Source: Albidovulum marisflavi
Lineage (GTDB): Bacteria; Pseudomonadota; Alphaproteobacteria; Rhodobacterales; Rhodobacteraceae
NCBI RefSeq assembly: GCF_025751435.1
Contig: NZ_JAOWKY010000001.1
Span: forward strand, 1,720,001 to 1,784,000
Length of the DNA: 64,000 nucleotides
Direction of reading: 5' to 3'
Shown here: positions 5,836 to 45,406 of the stretch, piece by piece
How positions within the stretch are numbered: position 1 is the first letter of the stretch
How the letters are laid out: each line of letters starts with the position of its first letter
Made by a program: the position numbers and the translations under genes
The notes under the pieces: model-generated
The model's database searches: none
The model's input: the letters and a program-made list of their open reading frames with translations, nothing else
What the model was told of the DNA's origin: nothing

Positions 5836-5851
5836 GGGTTAGGAGAGAGCA

Positions 5852-6940
5852 ATGACGCTGACGCTTGAAGGGGTCTCCAAGGTCGTGAACGGCCAGCCCC
5901 ACATTCATACGACGGATCTGACCCTTCAGAATGGAACGATGAACGTGCTTCTGGGCCCGACGCTGTCTGGAAAGACATCGCTCATGCGCCTGATGGCCGG
6001 GCTGGACGTCCCGAACTCCGGTCGCATCCTGTGGAACGGCGAGGACGTCACGGGAATGCGCGTGCAGGACCGCAAGGTAGCGATGGTTTACCAGCAGTTC
6101 ATCAACTATCCGTCGATGACGGTTTACGACAACATCGCAAGCCCGATGCGGTTGCTTGGCAAGTCGAAGGACGAAATCGACCGGGCGGTTCGCAAGTCGG
6201 CCGACCTGATGAAGCTGACGCCGATGCTTGACCGCAAGCCGCTTGAGCTTTCGGGCGGACAGCAACAGCGGTGTGCGCTGGCGCGGGCGCTGGTCAAGAA
6301 CGCGGGTCTTGTTCTTCTGGACGAACCGCTTGCCAACCTGGACTACAAGCTTCGCGAGGAGCTTCGCGTCGAGATCCCCAAGATCTTTGAGGAATCCGGT
6401 TCGATCTTCGTCTACGCGACGACAGAGCCGGAAGAGGCGCTGCTGCTGGGCGGCAACACCGCGACGCTTTGGGAAGGACGGGTGACGCAGTTCGGACCGA
6501 CGCCCGAGGTGTATCGCAAGCCGGTCGATGCGACGACGGCGCGCGTCTTTTCCGACCCGCCGATGAACTTCATGCAGGTGTCGAAAACCGGCGGCAAGCT
6601 CATGTTCGGCGACGGGCAGTGGACAGCACTTTCGGGCAAGCTTCGGGACCTTGCGGACGGCCGCTATGTCGCGGGTTTCCGCCCGAACCACGTCGAACTT
6701 GAACGGCACACTGCCGATGCCATGGCCTTTACCGCGAAACTAAACGTGACCGAGATCACCGGGTCGGAAACCTTCGTCCATCTCGATCACCACGGCGAGC
6801 GTTGGGTCGGTCTTGTGCACGGTGTCCGCAACCTGGAGCTGGGCAAGGACGTCAAGGTCTATATCGACTCGGCCCATGTCTACATCTTCGGCGAGGATGG
6901 CGCGCTGGTCGCGCCTGCCGCTTACGCGCTTGCCGCCTGA
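5852..6940 (+). CDS. glpS: Glycerol ABC transporter ATPase GlpS
   Basis: Cytoplasmic ATPase of the alphaproteobacterial glycerol importer described for the Rhizobium glpDSTPQUV operon. It has 362 residues: Walker A GPTLSGKTS at 35-43, signature LSGGQQQR at 133, Walker B LVLLDEP with the catalytic Glu near 158, then a C-terminal TOBE/MalK-like domain. Its switch region reads YATTEPEEA where most ABC proteins have THDQ-type residues, so the switch histidine is missing. It starts after TAGGAGAGAGCA and is followed within 12 bp by the second, different ATPase glpT, so the importer probably uses an asymmetric ATPase pair. Confidence 0.92.
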   Translation: MTLTLEGVSKVVNGQPHIHTTDLTLQNGTMNVLLGPTLSGKTSLMRLMAGLDVPNSGRILWNGEDVTGMRVQDRKVAMVYQQFINYPSMTVYDNIASPMRLLGKSKDEIDRAVRKSADLMKLTPMLDRKPLELSGGQQQRCALARALVKNAGLVLLDEPLANLDYKLREELRVEIPKIFEESGSIFVYATTEPEEALLLGGNTATLWEGRVTQFGPTPEVYRKPVDATTARVFSDPPMNFMQVSKTGGKLMFGDGQWTALSGKLRDLADGRYVAGFRPNHVELERHTADAMAFTAKLNVTEITGSETFVHLDHHGERWVGLVHGVRNLELGKDVKVYIDSAHVYIFGEDGALVAPAAYALAA

Positions 6941-6951
6941 GGGAGGGGAAA

Positions 6952-9752
<2,801 letters not shown>

Positions 9753-9775
9753 CCCAGAGAAAGGGAGGAAACCCC

Positions 9776-10048
9776 ATGGACTGGATGGCCTGGACCGGAC
9801 CGACGGCGATCTTTTTCGCCGTCATCGCCTGCCTTCTCATCACCTTCACGATCCTTGCGATCAGATTTCCCGAGACGCCGCGCGTCGGCGTTCTCCGGAT
9901 CGAAACGACCCGTGGTGACCGACTGTTCATCACGCTTCTGGGTTCGGCCTTCATCAATCTGGCCTGGCTCGGTCTCGTCAGCGCGCCGCAGTGGGGGGCG
10001 CTGATCCTCTGCCTGATCTACGCCGCAGCAGTGTTCCGCTGGGTCTGA
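9776..10048 (+). CDS. glpU: Small membrane protein GlpU (DUF2160)
   Basis: A 90-residue inner-membrane protein with three hydrophobic segments: TAIFFAVIACLLITFTILAI near the N-terminus, a middle helix around LFITLLGSAFINLAWLGLV, and a C-terminal one in ALILCLIYAAAVFRWV. The charged loop PETPRVGVLRIETTRGDRLF is characteristic of the DUF2160 family found in alphaproteobacterial glycerol operons. Its exact role in the importer is unknown. ATG 9776 follows AGGGAGGAAACCCC. It sits between the permeases and the binding protein, as in Rhizobium. Confidence 0.88.
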   Translation: MDWMAWTGPTAIFFAVIACLLITFTILAIRFPETPRVGVLRIETTRGDRLFITLLGSAFINLAWLGLVSAPQWGALILCLIYAAAVFRWV

Positions 10049-10064
10049 GAGGGCGCTTCAAGGA

Positions 10065-10096
10065 GGCGATCCTCCGGTTGGCAAGCCGGAGTCGCC
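10065..10096 (+). promoter_or_regulatory. Intra-operon stem-loop before glpV
   Basis: An inverted repeat GGCGA-TC-CTCCGG / CCGGAG-TCGCC with an 8-base loop and a two-base bulge lies in the 79-bp gap before the solute-binding protein gene. There is no T-tract. Similar hairpins often protect the binding-protein part of ABC operon mRNAs from decay and raise its expression relative to the permeases; that role is inferred. Confidence 0.5.
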
Positions 10097-10127
10097 GTAT
10101 AACCGTAGTTTCCTTAGGGAGGGAGTT

Positions 10128-11849
10128 ATGAAATTGCCATTCAAGTCAACAACAGCCATGGGCATGGCGCTTGCGCTTCTGTCCGGACCGGCCTTCGCCG
10201 GAATGGATGAGGCGAAGGCGTTCCTCGATGCCGAGATCGGCGATCTGTCGACACTGTCGCGCGCCGATCAGGAAGCCGAGATGCAGTGGTTCGTCGATGC
10301 GGCGGCGCCCTTCGCCGGCATGGACATCAAGGTGGTGTCGGAAACCATCACGACCCACGAATACGAATCCAAGGTGCTTGCCCCTGCCTTCACCGCGATC
10401 ACCGGCATCCAGGTCACCCACGACCTGATCGGCGAGGGCGACGTCGTCGAGAAACTGCAGACCCAGATGCAGTCGGGCGAAAACATCTATGACGCCTACA
10501 TCAACGATTCCGACCTGATCGGCACCCACTGGCGCTACCAGCAGGCGCGGATCCTGGACGACTGGATGGCGGGCGAGGGCGCTGACGTCACCAACCCGAA
10601 CCTTGATGTCGATGACTTCATCGGCAAGTCCTTCACGACGGCCCCGGACGGCAAGCTCTACCAGCTTCCCGACCAGCAGTTCGCCAACCTTTACTGGTTC
10701 CGCTACGACTGGTTCAACGACGAAAAGACCAAGGCGGATTTCAAGGAAAAGTATGGCTATGACCTTGGCGTTCCGGTCAACTGGTCGGCCTATGAGGACA
10801 TCGCCGAGTTCTTCACCGGACGCGACATGTCCTACATGGGCGGCCCAACCAGCGTCTATGGCAATATGGACTACGGCAAGAAGGACCCGTCGCTTGGCTG
10901 GCGCTACACGGATGCGTGGATGTCGATGGCCGGCATGGGTTCTGAAGGCGAGCCGAACGGCCTGCCGGTCGACGAATGGGGCATCCGGGTGAATGAGAAT
11001 TCGCAGCCGGTTGGTTCCTGCGTCGCGCGGGGCGGTGCCACCAACTCGCCGGCAGCGGTCTATGCGGTCACCAAGGCGATCGAGTGGCTGGAGAAATATT
11101 CGCCGCCCGCGGCCGCCGGCATGACCTTCTCGGAAGCCGGTCCGATCCCCGCGCAGGGCGAAATCGCCCAGCAGATGTTCTGGTACACCGCCTTCACTGC
11201 CGACATGGTCAAGGAAGGCCTGCCGGTCATGAACGAGGACGGCACGCCCAAGTGGCGCATGGCACCTTCGCCGCATGGCGCCTACTGGACCGAGGGGACG
11301 AAGATCGGCTACCAGGACGCCGGTTCCTGGACGCTGATGAAGTCGACGCCGGTCGATCGCGCCAAGGCGGCCTGGCTCTACGCCCAGTTCGTCACCTCGA
11401 AGACCGTCGACGTGAAGAAGTCCCATGTGGGCCTTACCTTCATCCGCGAGTCCACCATCCAGCACGACAGCTTCACCGAGCGCGCACCGCAGCTTGGCGG
11501 CCTGATCGAGTTCTATCGTTCGCCGGCCCGCGTCCAGTGGTCGCCGACCGGCACGAACGTGCCCGACTACCCGAAGCTGGCACAGCTGTGGTGGCAGAAC
11601 ATCGGCGACGCGATGTCCGGCGCCAAGACGCCGCAGGAGGCGCTGGACTCGCTCTGCGCCGATCAGGAAAGCGTGCTTGAACGGCTTGAGCGGGCTGGCG
11701 TGCAGGGCGACATCGGTCCGATGCTGAACGAGCCGAAGGACCCGCAGGAATGGCTGGACGAGCCGGGCTCGCCCAAGGCCAAGCTTGAGAACGAGGACCC
11801 GACCCCGGAAACGATCAGCTATGACGAGCTGATCGCGTCGTGGAAATAA
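10128..11849 (+). CDS. glpV: Glycerol-binding periplasmic protein GlpV
   Basis: Extracytoplasmic solute-binding protein, 573 residues, with a Sec signal peptide that should be cleaved after ALLSGPAFA (residues 16-24). The mature part is long for a family 1 binding protein and matches the size of the GlpV glycerol receptors. Aromatic-rich segments such as YQLPDQQFANLYWFRYDWF are consistent with a small-polyol pocket. The start follows TAGGGAGGGAGTT, the strongest ribosome binding site in the operon, which fits high expression of a binding protein. A stem-loop precedes and another follows the gene. Confidence 0.9.
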   Translation: MKLPFKSTTAMGMALALLSGPAFAGMDEAKAFLDAEIGDLSTLSRADQEAEMQWFVDAAAPFAGMDIKVVSETITTHEYESKVLAPAFTAITGIQVTHDLIGEGDVVEKLQTQMQSGENIYDAYINDSDLIGTHWRYQQARILDDWMAGEGADVTNPNLDVDDFIGKSFTTAPDGKLYQLPDQQFANLYWFRYDWFNDEKTKADFKEKYGYDLGVPVNWSAYEDIAEFFTGRDMSYMGGPTSVYGNMDYGKKDPSLGWRYTDAWMSMAGMGSEGEPNGLPVDEWGIRVNENSQPVGSCVARGGATNSPAAVYAVTKAIEWLEKYSPPAAAGMTFSEAGPIPAQGEIAQQMFWYTAFTADMVKEGLPVMNEDGTPKWRMAPSPHGAYWTEGTKIGYQDAGSWTLMKSTPVDRAKAAWLYAQFVTSKTVDVKKSHVGLTFIRESTIQHDSFTERAPQLGGLIEFYRSPARVQWSPTGTNVPDYPKLAQLWWQNIGDAMSGAKTPQEALDSLCADQESVLERLERAGVQGDIGPMLNEPKDPQEWLDEPGSPKAKLENEDPTPETISYDELIASWK

Positions 11850-11857
11850 GTCCTGAC

Positions 11858-11882
11858 GGCCGGGGCCTTTTTGGCCCCGGCC
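11858..11882 (+). terminator. Hairpin between glpV and glpK
   Basis: A perfect 10-bp stem GGCCGGGGCC/GGCCCCGGCC with a five-T loop lies just after the glpV stop. The downstream sequence ACCTTACGG lacks a T-run, so it is more likely a partial terminator or 3' stabilising hairpin than a full stop. It could set glpK at a lower level than glpV. Confidence 0.6.
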
Positions 11883-11950
11883 ACCTTACGGGCGCGTCCT
11901 TCGCCCGTTATTTCATGAATATCCGGGTTTCACACTGACAGGGCGAACCA

Positions 11951-13438
<1,488 letters not shown>

Positions 13439-13557
13439 AGCGCGAAGGTGTCGGCGGCGTATCCGGCCCTTTACGGCGCGCGCGGGTGCAAGGGGTGTAT
13501 GATCGCCTGTCAAGATGCCGGGTTTTCGGGTGCCAATCGTGAAGGAGTGGTCTGCTG

Positions 13558-14697
13558 ATGGAACCGTATGGCTTTGCCAGTCCGCGCCTCACGCTTTTCG
13601 GCCGTGGGTGCCGGACCGAGGCTGCCGCTCATATCGCCATGCTGGGCAGGAAGGTGCTGCTTGTTCGCGGCCGCTCGGTCGCCTGGGCAGGGGACCTGCG
13701 CTCGGGGCTGGAGGCGGCCGGGCTGCGCGTGGTCGAAACCCTGGCTCAAGGCGAGCCGACGGTCGGCCAGGTGCGTGCGGCGCTTGAAACCTGCCGCAGC
13801 TTCGGCCCCGATTGCGTCGTCGCAATCGGCGGCGGTTCTGTTGTCGACCTTGCCAAGGCTCTTGCGGCGCTTCTGCCCGCGGGCGGCGATCCCCTGGATT
13901 ATCTTGAGGGGGTGGGCAAGGGGCTGACCCTGGATCCCGATCCTCTGCCGCTTGTGGCGATCCCGACCACCGCCGGGACCGGAGCGGAAGCGACAAGGAA
14001 CGCCGTTCTTGGCGTACCGGATCGCGGGCTGAAGATCAGCCTTCGCGACACGCGCATGATCCCGCGCCTTGCCATCGTGGATCCGGCGCTGACGGACGAT
14101 GCGCCGCGGGCCTTGACCCTGGCCACTGGCCTGGACGCCCTGACCCAGTTGATCGAGGCCTACCTGAGCATTCGCGCCAACATCGTGACCGACGCGCTGT
14201 GCCGCGACGCGGCCCCGAAGGGCATTGCCGCCCTTGGCCGCTTGATGAAGGGCGAGGACCCCCTGGCGCGCGATGCCATGGCAAGGGCGAGCCATCTGAG
14301 CGGCCTCGCGCTGGCGAATGCGGGTCTGGGCATCGTGCACGGGCTGGCGTCCGTCATCGGCGGGCGCGGCGGTTCACATGGCGCGATCTGCGGGCGGTTG
14401 CTGCCCGCGGCGCTGGCGGTGAACGAACGCGCGGCGAGAAAGGCTGGTTTGCCTACCGATCGGTTCGTGCAAGTGGATGAGTGGCTGGCCCAGGGACTTG
14501 GCGGGGAGGTGGGCCGCGGCTCAGACTGCCTGCGACAGTTCGCCGATGCCCATGGCCTGCCATCGCTTCGGGCGCTTGGCTGCGATGCGGGCGAAGAAGG
14601 CGATATCGCCCGCGCCGCGATGACGGCAAGCTCGACCAAAGGCAATCCCGTGCGGTTGGATCTGGAGGAAATCGTCGACATTCTGGCCCGGTCGTAA
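13558..14697 (+). CDS. Iron-containing alcohol dehydrogenase
   Basis: A 379-residue group III alcohol dehydrogenase. The NAD(P)-binding motif GGGSVVDLAKALAAL and the PTTAGTGAEATRNAVL segment are present. Metal-site motifs are ATGLDALTQLIEAYLS and later IVHGLASVIGGRGGSHGAIC. In the first, the usual ligand histidine (DALxH) is glutamine, while the Asp and the two later histidines remain; this variant is common in one subgroup. ATG 13558 follows AAGGAGTGG. The gene lies 119 bp after glpK on the same strand and could oxidise or reduce a short polyol or aldehyde linked to glycerol use. Its substrate is not determinable. Confidence 0.85.
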   Translation: MEPYGFASPRLTLFGRGCRTEAAAHIAMLGRKVLLVRGRSVAWAGDLRSGLEAAGLRVVETLAQGEPTVGQVRAALETCRSFGPDCVVAIGGGSVVDLAKALAALLPAGGDPLDYLEGVGKGLTLDPDPLPLVAIPTTAGTGAEATRNAVLGVPDRGLKISLRDTRMIPRLAIVDPALTDDAPRALTLATGLDALTQLIEAYLSIRANIVTDALCRDAAPKGIAALGRLMKGEDPLARDAMARASHLSGLALANAGLGIVHGLASVIGGRGGSHGAICGRLLPAALAVNERAARKAGLPTDRFVQVDEWLAQGLGGEVGRGSDCLRQFADAHGLPSLRALGCDAGEEGDIARAAMTASSTKGNPVRLDLEEIVDILARS

Positions 14698-14928
14698 CGG
14701 GCCGCAGCCGCCGCTGACCTTCGCCCCGGTCCTGTTTGCGCCCAATAACAGGCATTGCTCAAGCGCGTGCCGCTGACCGCGTTTTGACGGAACCAGGGCT
14801 CAGGCGGCGTCACTGCGTTTCGCGCATCGGTGGCTGGCGTTTGGATGCGCGTCGGCCGCCTTCGCGACGCACCGGCGGATCGCCGCCGCGGTGCACAGCA
14901 TCAATGGTAAGCGAAAAGGCGGCGCCGC

Positions 14929-33900: not shown

Positions 33901-34293
33901 TCAACCGATCCGGGAAAGCAGGGCCAGCACCTCAGAGCGGTTCAGCACACCCAGCAGCCGTCCCTTTTCCAGAACCGGCAATATCCGGTGCGGATGGGAC
34001 AGGAACATCTCGGCGGCCCGCACCAGGTCGTCGTCCGCATCCACAGTGATCACCTTCGCCGACATGTAATCGGCCACCTGGCCCTTCCATTCCTGATAGT
34101 AGCTCGCGTGAAGTGCCGGGCGGAAGCAGTCCTTTTGCGTCAGGATTCCTTCCAGGCTGCCGTCGTCCCTCAGGACCGGCAGGACCTCAGCCGCTTGCTC
34201 GACCATCATCGCGATGGCATTGCGGATCGGCAGGTCCCGGGACACCGTCGGGCAGTTGGTGCGAACGATCGACCGGACAAGGTATTCGCTCAC
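33901..34293 (-). CDS. Tandem CBS-domain protein
   Basis: A 130-residue protein made only of two CBS motifs, beginning EYLVRSIVRTNCPTVSRDLP and later YMSAKVITVDADDDLVRAAE, with the paired strand LPVLEKGRLLGVLNRSEVLA. A CBS pair binds adenosine nucleotides and serves as an energy sensor. The start is GTG 34293, preceded by AGGAGGACGGAGC; it overlaps the nqrM stop by 4 bp (GTGA). It is the last gene of the nqr operon, so it may sense the cell's energy or redox state for Nqr. This is inference. Confidence 0.85.
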   Translation of the reverse strand: MSEYLVRSIVRTNCPTVSRDLPIRNAIAMMVEQAAEVLPVLRDDGSLEGILTQKDCFRPALHASYYQEWKGQVADYMSAKVITVDADDDLVRAAEMFLSHPHRILPVLEKGRLLGVLNRSEVLALLSRIG

Positions 34294-34472
34294 GCTCCGT
34301 CCTCCTGAGGTTCGCGCCTCCGGGCTATCGGGCAGTTCGCGCAGCGGCCGCTGGGCAGGCAGGACGCGGCGCCGCAGCTGGTCTTCGCCGGTCCGCGCCC
34401 AAGCACAAGACCCAGCCCGATGCCGAGGGCGGATGCAGCGAAGATCGCGATGGACAAGAGGGTTTCGATCAT
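34290..34472 (-). CDS. nqrM: Na+-NQR maturation protein NqrM
   Basis: A 60-residue protein with one N-terminal membrane helix (IAIFAASALGIGLGLVLG) followed by four cysteines at 33, 38, 44 and 47 in a K-x-S-C-G-x-x-x-C arrangement. This is the pattern of NqrM, needed for iron delivery to the membrane-embedded Fe centre of Na+-NQR. The ATG at 34472 overlaps the apbE stop by 4 bp. Its presence in the operon argues that the complex carries the NqrD/NqrE iron site, whose cysteines are conserved. Confidence 0.88.
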   Translation of the reverse strand: MIETLLSIAIFAASALGIGLGLVLGRGPAKTSCGAASCLPSGRCANCPIARRREPQEDGA

Positions 34473-35443
34473 AGCAGCAGCTTTGCGATGTCTCCGGTCC
34501 GGACTTGGCGCGGGACAGGGTCGTCGCCGATAAGGAAAAGCGCCGAAACGCCCCGCGCCCGTGCCAGCGCTGGCCCTGCCTCGGCCCCGGCGGCGAACAA
34601 CGCCGTGGCCCAGCCATCGGCGGTCGTGGCGTCGTCGGCGGTGACCGTGACCGACCTGAGCTGCCCTGACGCGGGCCGTCGCCGTGCCGGGTCGATGATG
34701 TGCCCGCTGATCGTGTCGCCGACACCGTAGCTTTGCGCCTTGAGGCTTGACGTGGCCACGGCCCGGCCAGAGGGCAGTTCCAGCACGGCGGTCGGCGGGG
34801 CGTCCGCCGTCGGATGCTCGACCGCCACGCGCCAGGGGCGTCCGGACGGGTGGCTGCCAAGCACCGCAAGTTCTCCTCCCAGATCCATGATCAAGCAAGC
34901 CTGGTCCGCCGCTCTTGCAATCGCGATCGCCCGGTCCAGGGCCCAGCCCTTGGCTATTCCGCATAGGTCGAGTGTCAGGCCGCTGTCGTCCTTGGCGACG
35001 GCCTCTTCCCCGATGCTGACGCCCCGCCAGTTCGGCGCGCCACCGGTGATGGGGCCGAAGCCCCACTGCGCGACCAGCGGCCCGACGGTCGGATCGAAGG
35101 CGCCGCCGCTTTCTGCGGCAAGTGCCAGCGCGGCGGCGATCACCCGCGCGGTGTCGCGGCCGACCCTGCTTGATCCGGCGGGCGCGGTGTTGAAACGGCT
35201 GATCTCGCTGTCCTTCCGCCATGGCGACATCTGGCGGTCGACCTCGGAGAATGCCCGCTCGATCGCCGGGCGCAGCCGCTCAAACCCGCTGCCGGCGGGA
35301 CCGGTGATCCGCCAACTTGTGCCGAAAGCAGAGCCATGGAACGTGTGGACCGCCTCGGCGCGACCCGCCGTGGGCCACAGAAGCGCAGCCCCGACAAGAC
35401 CTAGCGTCTGCCGTCGCGTGGGTTGGATCATCGTCCTTCGCAT
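34469..35443 (-). CDS. apbE: FAD:protein FMN transferase
   Basis: ApbE attaches FMN covalently to Thr in NqrC (and usually NqrB). It has 324 residues, with a twin-arginine-like leader (TRRQTLGLVGAALLWPTAGRAEA), so it is exported to the periplasm, where the FMN acceptor loops lie. Family motifs are HGSAFGTSWRI, the FDPTVGPLVAQWGFG segment, MDLGGELAVLG and SGHIIDPARRR. The start at 35443 is 3 bp after the nqrF stop, with GGAG from inside nqrF as ribosome site; ATG 35431 is an alternative. Confidence 0.92.
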   Translation of the reverse strand: MRRTMIQPTRRQTLGLVGAALLWPTAGRAEAVHTFHGSAFGTSWRITGPAGSGFERLRPAIERAFSEVDRQMSPWRKDSEISRFNTAPAGSSRVGRDTARVIAAALALAAESGGAFDPTVGPLVAQWGFGPITGGAPNWRGVSIGEEAVAKDDSGLTLDLCGIAKGWALDRAIAIARAADQACLIMDLGGELAVLGSHPSGRPWRVAVEHPTADAPPTAVLELPSGRAVATSSLKAQSYGVGDTISGHIIDPARRRPASGQLRSVTVTADDATTADGWATALFAAGAEAGPALARARGVSALFLIGDDPVPRQVRTGDIAKLLL

Positions 35444-35446
35444 GGC

Positions 35447-36670
35447 TCAGACTCCGAAATCGTCATTGTAGATCGAACTTGGCTCGACACCCAACCTCTT
35501 GAGCGTGGCAAGCACCGCCGAGATCATCACCGGCGGTCCGCAAAGGTAATACTCGCAGTCCTCGGGTGCAGGGTGCTGTCGCATCGCGTCCCACAGCGTA
35601 TTGTGTATGAACCCTGTCCGCCCGGTCCAGCGGTCGCCGGGCGCCGGGTCCGACAGGGCGGGCGTCCAGGTGAAATTGGCGTGGTGCTTGGCCAGCGCAT
35701 CGAACTCGTCGGCGTAGAACAGGTCTGCGGCGCTGCGCGCGCCGTAAAAGTACCGGATGACGCGCGACGTGCCACCGGCAAGTTCCTGGTGGATCATCGC
35801 GCGCAGGGGCGCCATGCCGACCCCGCCGCCGACGAAGACCATGTCGCGCGAAGTGGGCTGGACGTGGAAGTCGCCGAACGGGCCCGACGCATCGACCTTG
35901 TCGCCCGGCCTGAGCGAAAAGAGCCAGGAAGATACGATCCCCGGCGGCACCTCACGCTCCCGTCCCGCCGGAGGAACGGCAAGGCGGATGTTGAACACTG
36001 CCTGACTGGCGTCCTGCGGGCGGGATGCCAAGGAATAGGCCCGTGTGACGGGTGCGTCCGAGGCGACCGAAAGGCGCGTCCAGCCCGCGATTTTCCACGC
36101 CTCGCGGAACGCGTCCGGCACCTCCAGGGTCGAGAAGTCCAAAGCGTAGGCGGGCGCGGTCAGTTGCATGAAGTCCCCCGCGCGGAAGCCGTGGTCGCGA
36201 CCGGGAGGCAGGTCCAGCACGATCTCTCGGATCAGCGGAGCGAGCATGCGCGTCGCGGCGACGCTGCAGGTGAAGCCGCCGCCCGCGCTGAGGACGCTGT
36301 CGGGCACCCGCACCGCGCAGTCGCCGCGCAGGCTGGTCTGGCAGGCCAGCCGCACATGCGCCCGCCGCTCGGCTGCCGAAAGCACCCCGCGTTCGGTCGC
36401 CTGCGGCGCTCCGGCTCCGGCACCTTCGACGACGACGCGGCAAAGGCCGCAACTTCCCTTGCCGCCGCACGGCGACGGTATCGCGATCCCCGCGTCCAGC
36501 AGCACCGGAAGCAGCTTGGTCCCGCGATCCGCGGACAGGTGTGTGATGCCGTTGACGGTGACGTCTACACCGCCCTCGGGGATCAGTCGCCGGCGCGCCG
36601 CCAACAGGCCAAGCGCCAGGCCAAAAACCAGCAAGACGATGGTGACGCTACCAATCGCGATTTCGGTCAT
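35447..36670 (-). CDS. nqrF: Na+-NQR subunit F (NADH dehydrogenase subunit)
   Basis: The NADH-oxidising entry subunit, 407 residues. A single N-terminal membrane helix is followed by a plant-ferredoxin-type [2Fe-2S] domain with cysteines 68, 74, 77 and 110 ([13 protein letters not shown]). The FAD domain has RAYSLAS, and the NADH domain has [13 protein letters not shown] and YYLCGPPVM. The protein ends IYNDDFGV, the usual FAD-stacking tail. ATG 36670 overlaps the nqrE stop by 4 bp, so the much longer upstream frame is spurious. Confidence 0.95.
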
Positions 36671-37281
36671 TGCGACGCCGCCATCTGCGCGAAGGACGAA
36701 AAGCCAAGCGACATCAGCCCGGCAAGGACGAAGGTGATACCCAGGCCCCGAAGACCCGCCGGCAGCTCGGCATAGGCCAGCCTGGACCTGATCGCGCCGA
36801 GCATGACCACCGCCACGCCGAAGCCCGCGCCGCTGCCCAGCCCGAAGACGGTGGATTGCGCGAAGGTGTAGTCGCGCTCGACCATGAACAGGCTGCCGGC
36901 AAGGATCGCGCATTGTACCGTCAAAAGCGGCAGGAAAACACCAAAGGCGGCGTGGATTGCAGGGAAGTAACGGTCCAGCAGCATTTCCAGGAACTGCACC
37001 ACGGCCGCGATCACGCCGATGAAGGCGATCAGCGACAGGTAGGACAGGTCCAGGTCCGGCAGACCCGCCCAGCTCCAGGCGCCGGGTGCCAGAAGACCCT
37101 GGTATATCAGCATGTTCAGAGGCACGGTGATGCCCATCACGCCGGTGATCGCGACGCCCAGACCGATCGCGCTTTCCGGCCGTTTCGAAAGTGCGACGAA
37201 GGTGCACAACCCAAGGAACAGCGCCAGCGGCATGTTGTCCACGAACGCAGCCGACAGGAAAAGGGTCCAGAGATCGGTCAT
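36667..37281 (-). CDS. nqrE: Na+-NQR subunit E
   Basis: A 204-residue membrane subunit with six predicted helices. Cysteines 26 (LFLGLC) and 124 (TVQCAILAG) sit where the Vibrio complex uses NqrE Cys26 and Cys120 to hold the intramembrane iron centre shared with Nqr[21 protein letters not shown] is the family signature. It starts inside the end of nqrD (4-bp overlap). Where Vibrio-type NqrE has TVNCAIFGG, this one has TVQCAILAG. Confidence 0.94.
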
Positions 37282-37943
37282 TCCGCCGGCTCCCCGGTCG
37301 GGGGCGGCTCGTGCTCGGGCGCTTCGGCCTGCTCGGGCAGGGCGGACCGGATCGCCCAGACCAGCAGACCCAAAAGAAAGAAGGCCGAGGGCGCAAGCAG
37401 CATCAGCGGCAGCGGCGTGAACCAGCCGCCCTGGTCCGAAAGCGCGAACACCTGATATCCCATCAACTCGCCCTTGCCGAACAGTTCGCGCGCCGCGCCG
37501 ATGACAGTCAGCACCAGCGAATAGCCCAGCCCGTTGCCGAAGGCGTCAACCATCGCCGGGACGGGCGGATTGTGGCGTGCGAAAGCCTCGGTCCGGCCAA
37601 GGACGAGGCAGTTGGTGGTGATGAGCGCCACGTAGACCGACAGTGCCCGGCTGATTTCCGCAAGATAGGCCCGCAGGAGCTGGTCGATGACGATCACCAG
37701 CGAAGCGATGATGACGATCTGCACGATCAGGCGGATCGTGTCCGGAATATGCCGCCGGATCAGGCTGACCGCGCCGGCGGAAAGCGTCATCACGACAGTC
37801 AGGGCGGCCGACATGGTCAGCGCCGTGGGCAGCGAGGTCGTCACCGCCAGCGCAGAGCAAAGCCCCAGGATCTGAAGCGTCACGGGGTTCTGCCGCACCA
37901 GCGGGTCGGTCAGTATGGACCAGAAGTCGAAGCGCCCCGCCAT
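37278..37943 (-). CDS. nqrD: Na+-NQR subunit D
   Basis: A 221-residue membrane subunit. Cys29 ([11 protein letters not shown]) and Cys112 ([10 protein letters not shown]) match, in position and context, the two NqrD ligands of the intramembrane iron centre. The C-terminal ~25 residues are a Pro/Glu-rich soluble tail ([18 protein letters not shown]). It overlaps nqrE and is separated from nqrC by 2 bp. Confidence 0.94.
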
Positions 37944-37945
37944 CG

Positions 37946-38740
37946 TCAGAACTCGCCCCGCCGGATGGCTTCAATCAGGGGGCCGTAGCCCTCGGGCCCA
38001 AGCCAGAACCGGACCATGCGGGTCACCGCGTTGCTGGTGCGGGTCGCGCCGGTGATGCCGTCGACCTCGTAACTGGTGGAGGCCGGCCCGCGGGCGACGG
38101 AAAAGCGGATCGTGCCTTCGCTGTCCCGGACTTCTGTTCCCGGCCAGCTTGACTGCCAGGAGGCCTCGTCGATCCGTCCGCCCAGGCCCGGCGTTTCGGA
38201 ATGGCGTGTCACCGCGATGCCGGCGACCGTGTTCATGTCGCCGCGCAGCGCCAGGATCGCCTCGATCCGGCCGTTGTAGCCCTGTCCCGCGATCGGCAGC
38301 AGCACGAGCGAGACCTGGTCCCCCTCGCGCAGCAGGAAGACCTGCGCGAAGTCCGGGCGGTGACCCAGGCCGGCGATGTCACCGCCGGAGTCGAGCGCCG
38401 ACCAGTTCCCCGGATCGTCCAGCGCGGCCGCAAGACTTTCGGGCGTCACATCGCGTGCCGCGCGGCCCGTTTCAAGGTTCACGACGACGGTCGACAGCGT
38501 TCCGCCGGATTGTTCCAAAAGCGCCGACATGCCGGGGATGCCGCGCACGAGCGATTCGATCCGCGCCTGCTGTTCGGCTGCGCGGTTCGCGGCCTGGATC
38601 GGGCGCAGGATCACGGTCGCCCCGCTGACCAGCGCCGCGCAGATCGCGGAGACCAAGAAGGCGACGATCAGCGTCTTTGTCCGGCTCTCGTTCGGAAGGG
38701 CAAGAAATCGGCGCCAGGGGTTGCGGTCAGGGCCTGCCAT
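37946..38740 (-). CDS. nqrC: Na+-NQR subunit C (covalent FMN subunit)
   Basis: A 264-residue subunit with one N-terminal membrane helix (LIVAFLVSAICAALVSGATV) and a periplasmic flavin domain. The ApbE target motif DGITGATRT is at 227-235, and the last Thr (235) is the expected FMN-phosphoester site. TPGLGGRIDEASW is another family segment. ATG 38740 lies inside the end of nqrB; the 24-residue upstream extension lacks a ribosome site. With NqrB lacking the motif, this is the only visible covalent flavin acceptor of the complex. Confidence 0.93.
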   Translation of the reverse strand: MAGPDRNPWRRFLALPNESRTKTLIVAFLVSAICAALVSGATVILRPIQAANRAAEQQARIESLVRGIPGMSALLEQSGGTLSTVVVNLETGRAARDVTPESLAAALDDPGNWSALDSGGDIAGLGHRPDFAQVFLLREGDQVSLVLLPIAGQGYNGRIEAILALRGDMNTVAGIAVTRHSETPGLGGRIDEASWQSSWPGTEVRDSEGTIRFSVARGPASTSYEVDGITGATRTSNAVTRMVRFWLGPEGYGPLIEAIRRGEF

Positions 38741-39509
38741 GACGCCTCCTTCTTTGTGCCCGCCAGAGCGCGATGGCAGCCTCGTCCAGCAAGGGCGCGG
38801 CAAGGGACGCAAGCAGCGCCGCCGACACCGCGATTTGCACCGGGGCCGCGCCGGACCAGCCGGTCGCGAAGAGCGTCACCAGCAGCGCGTAGACCACCCC
38901 GTTCAGCCAGCGGCCAAGCGCGGTTGCGGCGCTGGTCACGGGATCGCCGACCAGCAGCACCAGCACAACCGAGGCGGCGGGTAGAACCTCGCCCAGGTCA
39001 AGTCCCAGGGCCAGCCCCCCGGCGCCCGCCAGTGCGGCGCCAAGGATCACGGGGCCCGGCATCACGCCCAGGGTAATGCCGATCAGGGCCGCGGGGATTG
39101 CCGCCCAGGCCACGGGAAGCAGGATTTCTGGCCAGTCAAAGCCGGGAAAGCCGAAGCCCAGGAACGCCAGGGCGACGCTTGAGGGGTTCACCACATTCCG
39201 GCCCCAGCCGCCGAACACCAGTTCGCCCATTACTGCGCCGAAGCTGACGCCAAGGATAAGGGGCAACGGCCCAAGCTCCCTTGGCGCCAGCATCGCGATG
39301 GCAAGCGCGGTCGCCACCGCCGAAAGCGACGGCGCCTGCGCGCGCAGCAGCAGAAAGACAAGCTGCCAGATCGCCAGGATCAGCAGGATCAACAGCAGGG
39401 ACAGCGCCGCGTCGCCGCCTTCGAACCAGATCCAGATCAGGGCGAGGGGAAGATAGGCCGCGACAAGCAGGATGGCGACCGTCTCTCTGTCCCAAAGTCC
39501 GCGCCTCAT
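38727..39509 (-). CDS. nqrB: Short NqrB/RnfD-like subunit without the FMN motif
   Basis: A 260-residue polytopic membrane protein in the nqrB position. It keeps the family segments GGWGRNVVNPSSVALAF (compare GxGRNxLNP in NqrB) and LVGDPVTSAATALGRWLNG near the C-terminus (compare DPVSAxxTNxGKW). Canonical NqrB has about 410 residues. The part between these two segments that normally carries the S/T-G-A-T covalent-FMN loop is missing, and no SGAT or TGAT occurs anywhere in the protein. About 40-60 residues are also missing at the N-terminus. It overlaps nqrA by 4 bp and nqrC by 14 bp, so the gene is intact, not truncated by mutation. Confidence 0.85.
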   Translation of the reverse strand: MRRGLWDRETVAILLVAAYLPLALIWIWFEGGDAALSLLLILLILAIWQLVFLLLRAQAPSLSAVATALAIAMLAPRELGPLPLILGVSFGAVMGELVFGGWGRNVVNPSSVALAFLGFGFPGFDWPEILLPVAWAAIPAALIGITLGVMPGPVILGAALAGAGGLALGLDLGEVLPAASVVLVLLVGDPVTSAATALGRWLNGVVYALLVTLFATGWSGAAPVQIAVSAALLASLAAPLLDEAAIALWRAQRRRRHGRP

Positions 39510-40768
39510 GCCGCGAACTCCTTTTCGATCCGGTCAAGCATTCCCCGCAGCAGATCGGCAAGTCGCGCCTGGCCACCCAGGATATAGTCGGCCAGCGCCA
39601 GGTCCTCTTCCAGAAGTGACAGGACGCCAAGCGCCATCGCGGCCTCATCGTCACCCGATGTCAGCGCGCGCACCAGCGCAGTTGCGGGAAGTGCTGCGCC
39701 GAAGGCTTGCGTCAGGGCCGCCGTGGGTATGACCGGCGCGGGCCGCGCGGAGCGGGCCATCGCGGCCCAAAGCCAGTGCCGACGCGCTGGCGCATTCTCG
39801 CGCGGCATCACGCTGACCTGTCGATCGCGCGCGCCCAGCCAATGCGCCTGCCGGCCGTCAAGCGGCGAACCCGACAGCAAGTCGTGCGCGCCGGGCAGGG
39901 CCAGGCGATAGGTCAGCCCCCTCAGGTCCGCGCCGGGCTGGGTGCGCAGCAGGCGACTTTCACGCAGCGCCGGACCGGCGACGTGAACCAGTCGCGTTTC
40001 CGGCGCCATTTGGGTGTCCAGCAGTTCGCCCAAGGCCGCCACGTCCTCGGCATGGATGTCCCAGACGGGGGTGGCGATCCCGGCCGGGAACAGATCGTGG
40101 ATGCGCAATCCCGGCAGCCCCTGCGGGTGGCGCGGACCGCAGTTCACGACCCGCAAGCGGTCACCGCCGGGCCGACCGTCGAACAGCTTCGGCCCCGGGG
40201 ACTGGCAGACGAAGACCGGCCCCTCGGTCAGGCCCGCCAGCGCGTCCAGTCCTTTTGCAAATGACTCCTGCCGGTTCTCCAGCGCCAGCCTCGGATCGAC
40301 GGCCAGCGGGCGCGTGTCGGCGGCCATGACCACGATCGCCTTGGGGATCTCGTCCGGGGCGGGCATTCCCCCGAAGGGCCGCCGGCCCAGCAGCGGCCAG
40401 AACCCGGCACCTTGCATCAAGCCCCGCACCGACCCGCCGTCGGCAAGCTTGTGCGCCACACGGTCGCCGCCGGCTTCGTGAAACAGAACGATTTCGGACA
40501 GTCGGTGTCCGGGCAGCATGCGGACGTGTGCCACCCGTGCGGGCATCGGCGCAACCAGTGCGGTCCCCGCGTGGTCCCGAAGCCTGGCGACCGGCGCGCC
40601 TTGCGCGACGACGGCACCCTCATCGGCCAGGGACACCACGCGCAGCGGTTCTCCCGGCGGCCCGACGACGCCCGCTTCCTCGGTGATTTCGAGGCGTATC
40701 TCCGCGTCGGCGCGCGGTGCGGACGGGAATGGCGGCGACAGCCCTGAGCCAAGGGCGAGGTTTGGCAT
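39506..40768 (-). CDS. nqrA: Na+-NQR subunit A
   Basis: A 420-residue cytoplasmic subunit and first gene of the operon. The N-terminal half holds the RnfC/NqrA barrel-sandwich-like region (GTALVAPMPARVAHVRMLPG). Further family parts are AVDPRLALENRQESFAKGLD and VNCGPRHPQGLPGLRIHDLF. It is more divergent than NqrD-F; the usual N-terminal I-x-x-GLDLPI motif appears only as GSGLSPPFPSAP. ATG 40768 follows CGGGAGAGAAG. A divergent cytochrome gene starts 109 bp away. Confidence 0.88.
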   Translation of the reverse strand: MPNLALGSGLSPPFPSAPRADAEIRLEITEEAGVVGPPGEPLRVVSLADEGAVVAQGAPVARLRDHAGTALVAPMPARVAHVRMLPGHRLSEIVLFHEAGGDRVAHKLADGGSVRGLMQGAGFWPLLGRRPFGGMPAPDEIPKAIVVMAADTRPLAVDPRLALENRQESFAKGLDALAGLTEGPVFVCQSPGPKLFDGRPGGDRLRVVNCGPRHPQGLPGLRIHDLFPAGIATPVWDIHAEDVAALGELLDTQMAPETRLVHVAGPALRESRLLRTQPGADLRGLTYRLALPGAHDLLSGSPLDGRQAHWLGARDRQVSVMPRENAPARRHWLWAAMARSARPAPVIPTAALTQAFGAALPATALVRALTSGDDEAAMALGVLSLLEEDLALADYILGGQARLADLLRGMLDRIEKEFAA

Positions 40769-40877
40769 CTTCTCTCCCGAATACCAACGTTGCCGGTCCG
40801 GCACATTCGCCTTCGAACCGTAACATGCTTGCATTTGATTGGAAGAGGCGGAAAATTGAACGCGGAGTACCATTGCA
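40769..40877. promoter_or_regulatory. Divergent nqr / cytochrome promoter region
   Basis: The 109-bp gap between nqrA and the pentaheme cytochrome gene must hold promoters for both directions. Its right half is AT-rich (TTGCATTTGATTGG and GGAAAATTGAA). I could not define boxes or a known operator such as an FNR site. Confidence 0.4.
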
Positions 40878-42044
40878 ATGCAAGTTCGCTTATCGGTCCA
40901 TGTCATCGGTGTTGGCGCGATCGTCGCGGGGGGCATCCTTGCCGCCAGCACGCCCAGCATCTCGCAGGAAGGCGGCGCCCCTGATGCAGGGGTGCCATAT
41001 GTCCTGCCCCAGTCCGGCCCCTTCAATCCCGAGGACATCGCGATTGAAAACAGCCAGGCGATCACAGACTGGTATCGGTCCGCTCATGCCGACCAGGCGG
41101 CCGAGGCTTTCCGGCATTGGGACGCGGACGAAGAGATCCGCCCTGTCTGCGCCGTCTGCCATTCAGGCGAGGGCTTTCGCGCCTTCCACGGGCTGGACGG
41201 AAGCGCGCCGGGCATTCCGGACAAGCCAATCCCGACCGGCGGTGTGGTCGACTGCGGCACCTGCCACAACGCGGGCCTGTCCAAGGTGAACGAAATCGCC
41301 TTCCCCAGCGGCCTGATGCACCCGGTCGAAGGGGTCGAGGCCGCCTGCCTTACCTGCCATCAGGGCCGCACGGCAGGCGTGTCTGTGGCGAACGCGGTCG
41401 CGGGCAAGAACGACGATCAGCCTGATCCGGAGCTGAGCTTCATCAATCCCCACTACGCCACTGCGGCGGCGACCTGGCTTGGCGGCTACGCGGCGGCCGG
41501 CTTCCACTACGAGGGCCAAACCTACTCCGGGCGGTTCTTCCACGCGCGACCGGTATCGACCTGCAATTCGTGCCATGACCCGCATTCCCTCAAGGTGGAA
41601 TTCGAAACCTGCCTGACCTGCCACCAAGGCACCGAACCCTCAGATATCCGCATCTCGCGGCAAAGCTACGACGGCTCGGGCGATACGTCGGTCGGGATCA
41701 AGCGGGACATCGACAACAATGCGGCGCTGTTGCTGGACATGGTCCGCGAATACGCCGCAGACATCGCGGGCGTGCCGCTTGTCTATGACGGCAACCGCCA
41801 CCCTTATTTCTTCGCTGACGCGAATGGCGACGCGATGGCCGATCAGGCCGAGGGCCGTCCCGTCGTCTACAACGCGTGGACACCGCGAATGCTGCGCGCG
41901 GCTTACAACTGGAAGCTCGTCACCGCAGATCCGGGGAACTTCGCGCACAATCCGCCCTATGCGCTGGAACTGCTTTACGACGCCATCGCCGACCTTGCCG
42001 GACCACTTGGCGTAGACATGGAACGGCTGAATCTTCTGAGGTAG
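40878..42044 (+). CDS. Pentaheme c-type cytochrome
   Basis: A 388-residue exported protein with a signal peptide or N-terminal anchor (HVIGVGAIVAGGILAAS). Five CxxCH haem-binding motifs start at Cys91 (CAVCH), 126 (CGTCH), 157 (CLTCH), 229 (CNSCH) and 245 (CLTCH). The remaining 130 residues have no haem motif. HARPVSTCNSCHDPHSLKV is typical of multihaem proteins with histidine sixth ligands. No named family is certain; it is not NapC, NrfA or TorC by layout. Divergent from nqrA and 24 bp upstream of an antiporter gene, it is likely a periplasmic electron carrier or reductase. Confidence 0.85.
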   Translation: MQVRLSVHVIGVGAIVAGGILAASTPSISQEGGAPDAGVPYVLPQSGPFNPEDIAIENSQAITDWYRSAHADQAAEAFRHWDADEEIRPVCAVCHSGEGFRAFHGLDGSAPGIPDKPIPTGGVVDCGTCHNAGLSKVNEIAFPSGLMHPVEGVEAACLTCHQGRTAGVSVANAVAGKNDDQPDPELSFINPHYATAAATWLGGYAAAGFHYEGQTYSGRFFHARPVSTCNSCHDPHSLKVEFETCLTCHQGTEPSDIRISRQSYDGSGDTSVGIKRDIDNNAALLLDMVREYAADIAGVPLVYDGNRHPYFFADANGDAMADQAEGRPVVYNAWTPRMLRAAYNWKLVTADPGNFAHNPPYALELLYDAIADLAGPLGVDMERLNLLR

Positions 42045-42068: not shown

Positions 42069-43229
42069 GTGGACCACGAACTGCTTCTGATCACCCTTGG
42101 CGTGCTCTTTCTGGCAGGGCTCGTCGCAGACCAGATCGGCCGGCTCACGCGCTTGCCGCGGGTCACCATGCTTTTGCTACTTGGCATCCTCGCCGGGCCG
42201 TCGGGTCTGAACCTGTTGCCCGACGATGCGTCGGGCTGGTTTGAGCTTGTCTCGGTCGTCGCGTTGACCATGGTCGCCTTCCTTCTTGGTGGCGAGCTGA
42301 CGCGCGAAAATCTGATGCGGCACGGCAAGCCGATCCTGACCATATCACTCGCCATCACCGTCGCGACACTCCTGGTGGTCTGGGCCGGGCTGAGCGCGAT
42401 CGGTCTTGATCCCGGCTTGGCGCTGCTGCTTGGGGCCATTGCGACCGCCACGGATCCCGCCGCCATTGCAGATGGGATCCGTCAGGCCGGCGCGCGCAGC
42501 GGATTTACCGAGACAATCACCGGAATCGTCGCCATCGACGATGTGTGGGGCATCGTTGCTTTCAGCGCCTGCCTTGCACTTGTGGGGCAGGGCGGCGGTC
42601 TGGAAAGCGTTCTTGGCGGGGCGGGGGCCGAACTAGGCGGCGCCGTTCTGTTGAGCTTGGCCATCGGCGTGCCGGGCGCCTTCCTGACGGGGCGCTTGAA
42701 GCCCGGCGAACCGCTGCAGGCGGAGGCTATCGGAATCGTCCTTCTGACTGCCGGGCTTGCGCTATGGCTCGAGGTTTCCTTCCTGGTCGCTGGCATCCTG
42801 ACCGGCGCGCTGATCGCCAATCTGGCCCGCCACCACGACTATGCGTTCAACGAGATCGAACATATCGAATGGCCGTTCATGCTGTTGTTCTTCCTTCTTG
42901 CCGGTGCGTCGCTGGACATCGGCGAACTGGCGATGATCGGCTGGATCAGCTTTGCCTACATCGTGCTGCGCATCTTGTCGCGGCTGATCGGCGGCGAGGT
43001 GGGCGCGGCGTTGGGCGGGGTTTCGGGTCCGCAGCGCCACGCCTACGGTCCGGCGCTGCTGCCGCAAGCCGGAGTGGCGGTCGGCATGGCGCTGGTCGCG
43101 GCCGAGGAGTTTCCCCAGTGGGCGTCGGTCGTGATGGCCCTGACCATCGCCTCGACGGTCGTTTTCGAACTGATCGGCCCGCTTTTCACGGCCGCGGCGC
43201 TGCACTGGCTGGAGACCAGGAACAGATAG
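42069..43229 (+). CDS. CPA2-family cation:proton antiporter
   Basis: A 386-residue inner-membrane protein with 11-13 predicted helices and no C-terminal TrkA-N domain. It has the Na+/H+ exchanger core: TRLPRVTMLLLLGILAGPSG near the N-terminus, then GAIATATDPAAIADGIRQAG and the antiporter motif IVAIDDVWGIVAFS with paired Asp. GTG 42069 follows AAAGGCAGGC and lies 24 bp after the cytochrome gene, so the two may be cotranscribed. It would exchange Na+ or K+ for protons, which fits next to a sodium pump; this is inference. Confidence 0.88.
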   Translation: MDHELLLITLGVLFLAGLVADQIGRLTRLPRVTMLLLLGILAGPSGLNLLPDDASGWFELVSVVALTMVAFLLGGELTRENLMRHGKPILTISLAITVATLLVVWAGLSAIGLDPGLALLLGAIATATDPAAIADGIRQAGARSGFTETITGIVAIDDVWGIVAFSACLALVGQGGGLESVLGGAGAELGGAVLLSLAIGVPGAFLTGRLKPGEPLQAEAIGIVLLTAGLALWLEVSFLVAGILTGALIANLARHHDYAFNEIEHIEWPFMLLFFLLAGASLDIGELAMIGWISFAYIVLRILSRLIGGEVGAALGGVSGPQRHAYGPALLPQAGVAVGMALVAAEEFPQWASVVMALTIASTVVFELIGPLFTAAALHWLETRNR

Positions 43230-44224: not shown

Positions 44225-45406
44225 CTATCGCTCGGCACCCATGAAATCATGAAAGGTCGCAAGGAAGACATCCCATGCCGGATTGCCGGGCAACGGAAGG
44301 TGATTGGCCGTCTCAAGCACGACCAGTTCGGCATCGGGGATGGCGGCAGCCATCTTGCGGGCTTCTGACAGGGGATGAACCGCATCGTGGCGCGCGTGAA
44401 CGATGAGGGTCGGGCAGCGTACAAGTGGCAAAAGCGCGGTATTGTCCACCGTGTTGATGGCATCGCGCAGGGCCAGTTCGGTTTCCTTCGAGACCGAACC
44501 CTGAAAATTCCGTGCCGCGGCCATGATGGCGTCCAGCGGTCCTTCGGGCAGATAGGCCAGCATGAATGCAGCGCCGATGCCGTCCGCTTCTGCGCGCCAT
44601 CCTTCGGTTATGAGGCGGCGAAAGGCGTCGCTGGACACATCCGTTCCACTGCGTCTGGATCGGCCCTCGACGTAGCCGCCTGCGATCACAAGCCGGCTGA
44701 CGCGTGTCGGATGGCGAACCGCGAAGCGCAGGGCCGCGTGGACGCCGCCCGATTGCGAAAACAGGGCGAAGCGGTCGAACCCCACGGCATCCGCCACCAG
44801 GCCGATTTCCTCAGCCATTGCATCGTGGTCGATGCATGGCGCACCGGTGCCCGCTTTCTTGAAATCGCGCCTGGTAAAGCGGGCAAGGCGATAGGACTGC
44901 GCCAGCGCTTGCGTTGCATCGCGCCAGTAGCGGGAATTCCACTCCGTCTCGATGTCCCAGGCCGGTGCGTCGACACGCAACAGCGGAGGCCCGTTCCCGT
45001 TGACCGCGTAAGCGATGCTTTCGCCTTCCGTTCCCTTGATGTATCGCACGCGCTGGACGATGGCGCTCGAAGGTTCGTTTGCAGGGGCCTCAAGCGATGG
45101 CGCAGACACATCGGCCACCAGCATAAGGCCGCGCCGAGCCACGGTGCGTATGACCGCCTGCGTCTTGCCGTCGTCGCCCAGTGCCCGCCGCGCGGCGGCG
45201 ATGCAGGCGGAAATCGCGCTTTCCGATATGATGCGGCCCTGCCAGACCTCTTCGATCATTTGGTCGCGCGTGACCAGGTCGCCTGCATTGCGCACGAGAA
45301 GATGGATGAGGTCAAACACCTTGGGCTCTACCGCGACCGGCGCGCCGTCCCGCATCAATGTCAGGCGCGCATCGTCCAGGACGCAATCGGCGAAACGGTG
45401 TTCCAT
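44225..45406 (-). CDS. Winged-helix regulator fused to alpha/beta-hydrolase
   Basis: A 393-residue fusion. Residues 1-100 are an OmpR/CadC-type winged helix (VAVEPKVFDLIHLLVRNAGD, EEVWQGRIISESAISACIAA, RTVARRGLML). Residues ~120-393 are an alpha/beta-hydrolase with a complete-looking triad: Ser219 in LFSQSGG, Asp341 in VHARHDAVHPL and His369 in ETANHLPL. No receiver domain or membrane helix is present. The hydrolase part may sense or process a small ester or lactone ligand and control DNA binding. It is divergent from a small ORF 136 bp away, its likeliest target along with itself. Confidence 0.85.
   Translation of the reverse strand: MEHRFADCVLDDARLTLMRDGAPVAVEPKVFDLIHLLVRNAGDLVTRDQMIEEVWQGRIISESAISACIAAARRALGDDGKTQAVIRTVARRGLMLVADVSAPSLEAPANEPSSAIVQRVRYIKGTEGESIAYAVNGNGPPLLRVDAPAWDIETEWNSRYWRDATQALAQSYRLARFTRRDFKKAGTGAPCIDHDAMAEEIGLVADAVGFDRFALFSQSGGVHAALRFAVRHPTRVSRLVIAGGYVEGRSRRSGTDVSSDAFRRLITEGWRAEADGIGAAFMLAYLPEGPLDAIMAAARNFQGSVSKETELALRDAINTVDNTALLPLVRCPTLIVHARHDAVHPLSEARKMAAAIPDAELVVLETANHLPLPGNPAWDVFLATFHDFMGAER

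Follow-up and report, generated by a model that had tools for sequence, protein, structure and literature searches.

All six subunits of an Nqr complex, NqrA to NqrF, are encoded in order in the window (the whole 64,000-nucleotide stretch of Albidovulum marisflavi DNA that was analyzed), an arrangement that is a membership feature of Na+-NQR, and apbE lies in the same operon together with two smaller genes (Table 1). With the TIGR models of NCBIfam, NqrD, NqrE, and NqrF score above the curated cut-offs and NqrA, NqrB, and NqrC below them. The earlier note had placed both apbE and nqrM in this operon. The former is confirmed; for the latter, a 60-residue reading frame is indeed present, but its identity as NqrM was not confirmed by family search, with no match at E up to 0.01 in Pfam or at E up to 1 in NCBIfam, so that “NqrM-like” is an unproved label. 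Homologues of this frame are found in 35 of 38 loci, and homologues of the CBS-domain protein, possibly a nucleotide-sensing regulator of the complex, in all 38 loci searched. The source genome also encodes complex I, and searches of it returned no second PF03116 protein besides the short NqrB, no other Cytochrome_C7 match and no MtrB-type porin match. Downstream of the cytochrome gene lies a gene of the Na+/H+ exchanger family (42069–43229), which has a homologue within the fetched stretch of 16 of the 38 loci, and positions 44225–45406 encode an alpha/beta hydrolase fused to a winged-helix transcription-regulator domain.

Table 1. Features of the nqr locus, with positions counted from the first letter of the window.
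Feature	Position	Strand	Details
CBS-domain protein	33901..34293	-	start inferred; possible regulator
Cys-rich protein	34290..34472	-	60 aa; NqrM-like by look only
apbE	34469..35443	-	FMN transferase
nqrF	35447..36670	-	NADH/FAD/2Fe-2S subunit
nqrE	36667..37281	-	Fe-S cysteines 26 and 124
nqrD	37278..37943	-	Fe-S cysteines 29 and 112
nqrC	37946..38740	-	flavinylation motif TGAT (Thr233)
short NqrB/RnfD-like subunit	38727..39509	-	260 aa; without FMN loop and without N-terminal quinone-site helices
nqrA	39506..40768	-	420 aa; divergent; TIGR01936 178.9 bits, below the cut-off of 321.05
shared divergent promoter region, nqrA/cytochrome gene	40769..40877		109 bp
exported pentahaem cytochrome c	40878..42044	+	388 aa; CxxCH at 91, 126, 157, 229, 245

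The short NqrB and the other subunits

The reading frame in the nqrB position matches only NqrB/RnfD models among the NCBIfam and Pfam profiles. It scores 62 bits with PF03116, above the cut-off, and 52.4 bits with the NqrB model TIGR01937 (cut-off 349.9), while the RnfD model TIGR01946 gives it 40.5 bits, less than the NqrB model does. Sequence alignment to Vibrio NqrB is clear over residues 136–218 and 341–414 only, the structural match to the same protein begins at residue 48, and the ammonium-channel-like fold and Asp397 are retained. The earlier note had described an otherwise complete Nqr operon whose NqrB is missing the covalent-FMN loop, and this description is borne out: the subunit has the 260 residues reported, the frame contains no flavinylation motif ([STA]GA[ST]), and the loop is missing throughout the aligned short forms. 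The gene overlaps of 4 bp (nqrB/nqrA) and 14 bp (nqrB/nqrC) were also given correctly, and the reading of the short gene as a stable form holds, with the form recurring across relatives. In 56 of 59 intact relatives, with proteins of 256–280 residues, a start codon for nqrB is placed so that the gene overlaps nqrA by the same 4 bp, a count that leans that way because the start nearest the nqrA stop was chosen.

The strict motif occurs in two of the 59 clean intact short NqrBs (L076 at 156 and L085 at 234), both times outside the stretch expected to hold the FMN loop, and the relaxed pattern of any residue followed by GA[ST] matches somewhere in 14 of the 59. Inside that stretch GA[ST] is seen in two divergent short NqrBs, as PGAT at 136 in L085 and as GGAS at 141 in L089, neither with the loop; we read both as chance, though they may represent a remnant or a non-standard site. 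An earlier scan of 76 loci with a loose pattern had given three matches (L025, L029, and L076). A shifted FMN motif is rejected, given that there is none in the window protein and no strict one at the place of the loop in the 59 short NqrBs. A sequencing or assembly deletion is rejected as well, because the short form is carried by dozens of genomes and by complete plasmids.

Also missing is the N-terminal portion of NqrB in which the quinone site is formed. The earlier note had overlooked this loss, as well as the divergent pentahaem cytochrome gene and the CBS-domain protein behind the operon. At the position of Gly140-Gly141 of the ubiquinone site the window protein has Leu45-Ala46, and across the short forms Gly140 is kept in 0 of 63, Gly141 in 24 of 63 and Glu144 in 6 of 63, vs. 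7 of 7 canonical NqrBs for each of the three residues. The equivalents of the riboflavin-binding residues of Vibrio NqrB (Thr162, Gly198, Asn200, Asn203, and Asp346) are kept in the window protein, and riboflavin may still sit there; Asn200 is missing from 13 of the 63 short forms.

The remaining cofactor sites are intact, as the earlier note had stated for NqrC and for NqrD/NqrE. The flavinylation motif of NqrC is found in the window and its threonine (233) in 62 of 64 short-form rows, both NqrD cysteines in 64 of 64 and both NqrE cysteines in 63 of 63 (all four also being present in the window), and the four 2Fe-2S cysteines of NqrF in 62 or 63 of 63. The window NqrA contains only two cysteines. 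The residue table and the cysteine counts leave out L069 and L091, whose operons are in pieces, and the cysteine counts and the tree described below leave out the RnfD-like L211 and L212. Besides TGAT, the window NqrC (38740–37946) has an SGAT tetrapeptide at residues 39–42, within its N-terminal membrane segment, which is probably there by chance.

Distribution and history of the short form

Sixty-eight of 248 family genomes match the window NqrB at E up to 1e-3, of which 31 carry the short form and the rest the canonical one, the short-form call being a reading of score, coverage, and frame length. These 31 include G013 (broken) as well as G159 and G245 (partial, at contig ends), and both forms occur together in G099 and G125. 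GTDB contigs were scanned as well, and of the 46 loci recovered 45 were taken as short; they come from Rhodobacterales, Martelella, Nitratireductor, and contigs labeled Granulosicoccus and Marinicella. In the class search, 3 of 21 matching genomes were taken as short, namely the window's own, G497 (L150), and G362 (L149). The phylum search matched 214 of 398 genomes; among the matches listed, five genomes from the same family each show a single match of nearly full length, and most of the others are split or lie in longer frames. Eight genomes of other families are read as RnfD-like by frame length, and two of these loci (L211 and L212) gave no NqrA or NqrF match.

A quick tree of NqrD, NqrE, and NqrF (55 rows, 828 columns) splits 36 short-form from 19 canonical operons with an SH-aLRT of 100. 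The outermost short form is L149, from another alphaproteobacterial family, in which an nqrBCDEF-apbE set with a short NqrB (5432–12871 in G362) is present and the genome has no NqrA match; upstream of the set, on the opposite strand, is a gene for a tetrahaem cytochrome, separated from it by one of the alanine-dehydrogenase/transhydrogenase type. On the canonical side the outermost operon is L198 (G603), which is long and SGAT-bearing and may hint at how the two forms separated. As covalent FMN is present on RnfD as well as on canonical NqrB, according to passages of PMC12174285, a single loss of the NqrB FMN would be the simplest history.

The short NqrB is also found in four plasmid records, with Paracoccus and Shinella plasmids among the carriers, and all four annotate it as “RnfABCDGE type electron transport complex subunit D.” In the two plasmids examined, the cytochrome-nqrABCDEF-apbE-CBS set lies together. 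The Paracoccus seriniphilus plasmid (L216) has a second large reading frame downstream of the cassette (12734–14773, minus strand), and the 680 residues covered contain five CxxCH.

The pentahaem cytochrome beside nqrA

A reading frame with at least three CxxCH motifs accompanies the short form in 61 of 67 loci (within the fetched stretch), loci that are not independent in that the family set and the GTDB contig set may share species. The 61 include L069, where the cytochrome is in pieces and one piece has five CxxCH, and L081, where a small tetrahaem cytochrome occupies the divergent slot; L077 (30% identity, 125 residues) does not enter any short-form count. In the 20 canonical loci, some of them with short flanks, no frame has even two CxxCH. 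As in the window, the cytochrome gene and nqrA diverge in 56 of 57 measured loci, at distances of 32–225 bp, the exception being the broken L091. For the window protein itself, the predicted structure is poor (pLDDT 67.2).

Six short-form loci lack a multihaem frame. Two of them are contig ends (L049 and L090), and in two others both operon and cytochrome are in pieces (L091 and L197). The last two, L082 and L088, have good flanks and no multihaem frame nearby; a SelO gene is present in L082, and the divergent slot of L088 holds an ethylbenzene-dehydrogenase-type haem protein with one CxxCH. Where the operon is in pieces (L091, L197, and L069) the cytochrome gene is broken too, and because of this the two appear to decay together.

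Cytochrome homologues occur in 40 of the 248 family genomes, namely in 27 of the 31 with the short form vs. 13 of the 217 without it (Fisher p = 3e-22, with kinship ignored), counting G053 as a match though it is weak (E 6.9e-4, internal stops). Leaving out G053, 13 cytochrome loci lie away from short nqr operons, 12 in genomes without the short form and one as a second copy in G047. In nine of these (L138, L139, L141–L145, L147, and L148) the divergent neighbor is a Ferric_reduct/FAD/NAD flavocytochrome of the NOX type, each confirmed by Pfam, and no such frame was found in L136, L137, L140, and L146. The same search found no flavocytochrome frame of this kind in any of the 67 short-form or 20 canonical loci. 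The cytochrome family therefore recurs beside two unrelated NAD(P)H-oxidizing membrane systems, never both in one of the loci studied here. NOX/ferric-reductase-type NAD(P)H oxidases work outward as a rule, and the pentahaem cytochrome with an NAD(P)H flavocytochrome b of this type is a candidate for another electron-export module.

The region between nqrA and the cytochrome gene contains a palindrome of the FNR/CRP type in many relatives (TTGAT-N4-ATCAA in, e.g., L050, L061, L078, L086, and L092). At least 8 of its 10 positions are matched in 26 of 55 intergenic regions, vs. a Markov mean of 3.05 and a maximum of 8 in 200 runs, and the looser TTG-N8-CAA is found in 19 of 55 vs. a mean of 1.1. 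Consensus motifs for CRP, Fur, RirA, Irr, NsrR, and RegA either did not exceed shuffled sequence or did so only slightly. The window's own intergenic region matches only 6 of the 10 positions and the relatives share their sites by descent, so we make no claim of regulation for the window.

The proposed electron path and its meaning

In canonical Nqr, as passages of PMC12174285 describe it, NqrC carries electrons from NqrD/E to the FMN of NqrB, and from there they reach riboflavin and quinone. For the window operon, gene content and sequence make it fairly probable that the product is an Nqr-type complex with a rerouted electron exit, i.e., one that performs NADH:cytochrome c rather than NADH:quinone oxidoreduction. 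Electrons would move from NADH to FAD and the 2Fe-2S center of NqrF, then to the 2Fe-2S center of NqrD/E and the FMN of NqrC, and this periplasm-facing FMN would pass them to the pentahaem cytochrome and on to periplasmic or outer acceptors, while NqrB would be kept as the docking site of NqrC and as an ion channel. Transfer from NqrC to the cytochrome seems the likeliest exit because the last relay and the quinone site are gone and a haem protein is available in the compartment of NqrC. The stricter version, a six-subunit “half-circuit” Nqr acting as an ion-coupled NADH:cytochrome c oxidoreductase with NqrB as ion channel and NqrC dock outside the electron path, is proposed more tentatively, at slightly less than an even chance. 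The flavocytochrome pairing counts for an outward reading, the flavocytochrome being a second system that carries electrons from NAD(P)H outward. Against a rerouted exit count L082 and L088, which do without a multihaem frame, the GA[ST] tripeptides of L085 and L089, the poor cytochrome model, the complex I and the missing MtrB-type match of the genome, and the retention of NqrA in most operons, which has no obvious reason. The strongest objection to bypassing NqrB entirely comes from the riboflavin ligands retained in the window clade, as keeping them would be surprising in a subunit that receives no electrons.

The earlier note had proposed a shorter path or a different cofactor. The loss of the FMN loop that it described stands, and a shorter path that still leads to riboflavin and quinone appears incomplete as an account. 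A different exit and not a shortcut is the better reading because the quinone site is missing and an exported pentahaem cytochrome is conserved as a neighbor. The riboflavin ligands of the window NqrB do favor a path in which the FMN of NqrC swings into the vacant place of the NqrB FMN and reduces riboflavin, followed by quinone or an acceptor on the cytoplasmic side, with the cytochrome as a side branch, and a similar sampling idea appears in passages of PMC11334425 for Nqr/Rnf-like complexes of two subunits in which the threonine is missing from the NqrB/RnfD-like part. We consider such a path unlikely, as the quinone-site helices and the Gly pair are missing, no redox cofactor is expected in an NqrA with so few cysteines, Asn200 is lost from part of the short forms, and the linkage to the cytochrome would be left unexplained.

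The same anatomy would suit electron flow in the opposite direction, in which the cytochrome, reduced by a periplasmic dehydrogenase or an inorganic donor, feeds NqrC, NqrD/E, and NqrF so that NADH is made at the expense of the ion gradient, and RNF is reversible according to passages of PMC12174285. This too is improbable, since the cytochrome family has a NOX/ferric-reductase-type NAD(P)H oxidase as its other partner and the five window neighbors scanned include no periplasmic dehydrogenase. That the operon is a degenerating relic, with NqrB decaying and the complex non-functional or an uncoupled NADH oxidase, is very unlikely despite the copies in pieces, given the deep clade, conserved length, recurrent 4-bp overlap, conserved cofactor cysteines, and the presence of the whole set together on Paracoccus and Shinella plasmids.

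RNF and MmcA are linked in one operon. This pair, from the methanogen Methanosarcina acetivorans, resembles the rerouted-exit complex proposed here in that an Rnf/Nqr-type complex is tied to a multihaem c cytochrome, although MmcA is heptahaem and related to octahaem tetrathionate reductases (PMC11024163), whereas the window cytochrome is pentahaem. RNF also has RnfB/RnfC, uses ferredoxin, and keeps FMN on RnfD, in contrast to the NqrF/NqrA and NADH of the window complex, and no RnfB or RnfC model matched the window NqrA and NqrF genes (among the best 25 of 28 matches for NqrF). RnfD shares with the window NqrB the lack of quinone-site helices but carries covalent FMN (PMC12174285, in the passages cited). 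The Na+-NQR of Vibrio cholerae has the same gene order, NqrA, NqrC-FMN, NqrD/E Fe-S sites, NqrF, ApbE, and NqrB fold; the window operon differs in an NqrB that lacks both the covalent-FMN loop and the ubiquinone site, in its divergent pentahaem cytochrome partner, and in belonging to a clade apart from the 19 canonical operons sampled. Two-subunit NQR/RNF-like systems also have an NqrB/RnfD-like subunit without the FMN threonine, and passages of PMC8238504 and PMC11334425 propose that electrons flow through them in one direction only, from NAD(P)H outward. In those systems, as the same passages describe, NqrB-like and NAD-binding domains are fused and the second subunit is NqrC-like, whereas the window has all six Nqr genes and a short NqrB with PF03116 only and no NAD domain.

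A complete NqrA–F set combining this NqrB loss with a dedicated cytochrome was not found in the open-license PMC literature, and what is new here is the conserved exported pentahaem cytochrome partner of the short-NqrB Nqr operon. Whether ions pass through NqrB or through NqrD/E in Nqr/Rnf pumps is debated, according to passages of PMC12174285. A natural complex without the path from NqrB FMN to quinone would tell the two routes apart, because if it still pumps, redox steps in NqrB are not a requirement for pumping. If the rerouted exit is true, it would add to the respiration of marine Rhodobacterales an entry point from NADH to periplasmic haem, perhaps ion-coupled, in the form of one cassette that is also found on plasmids.
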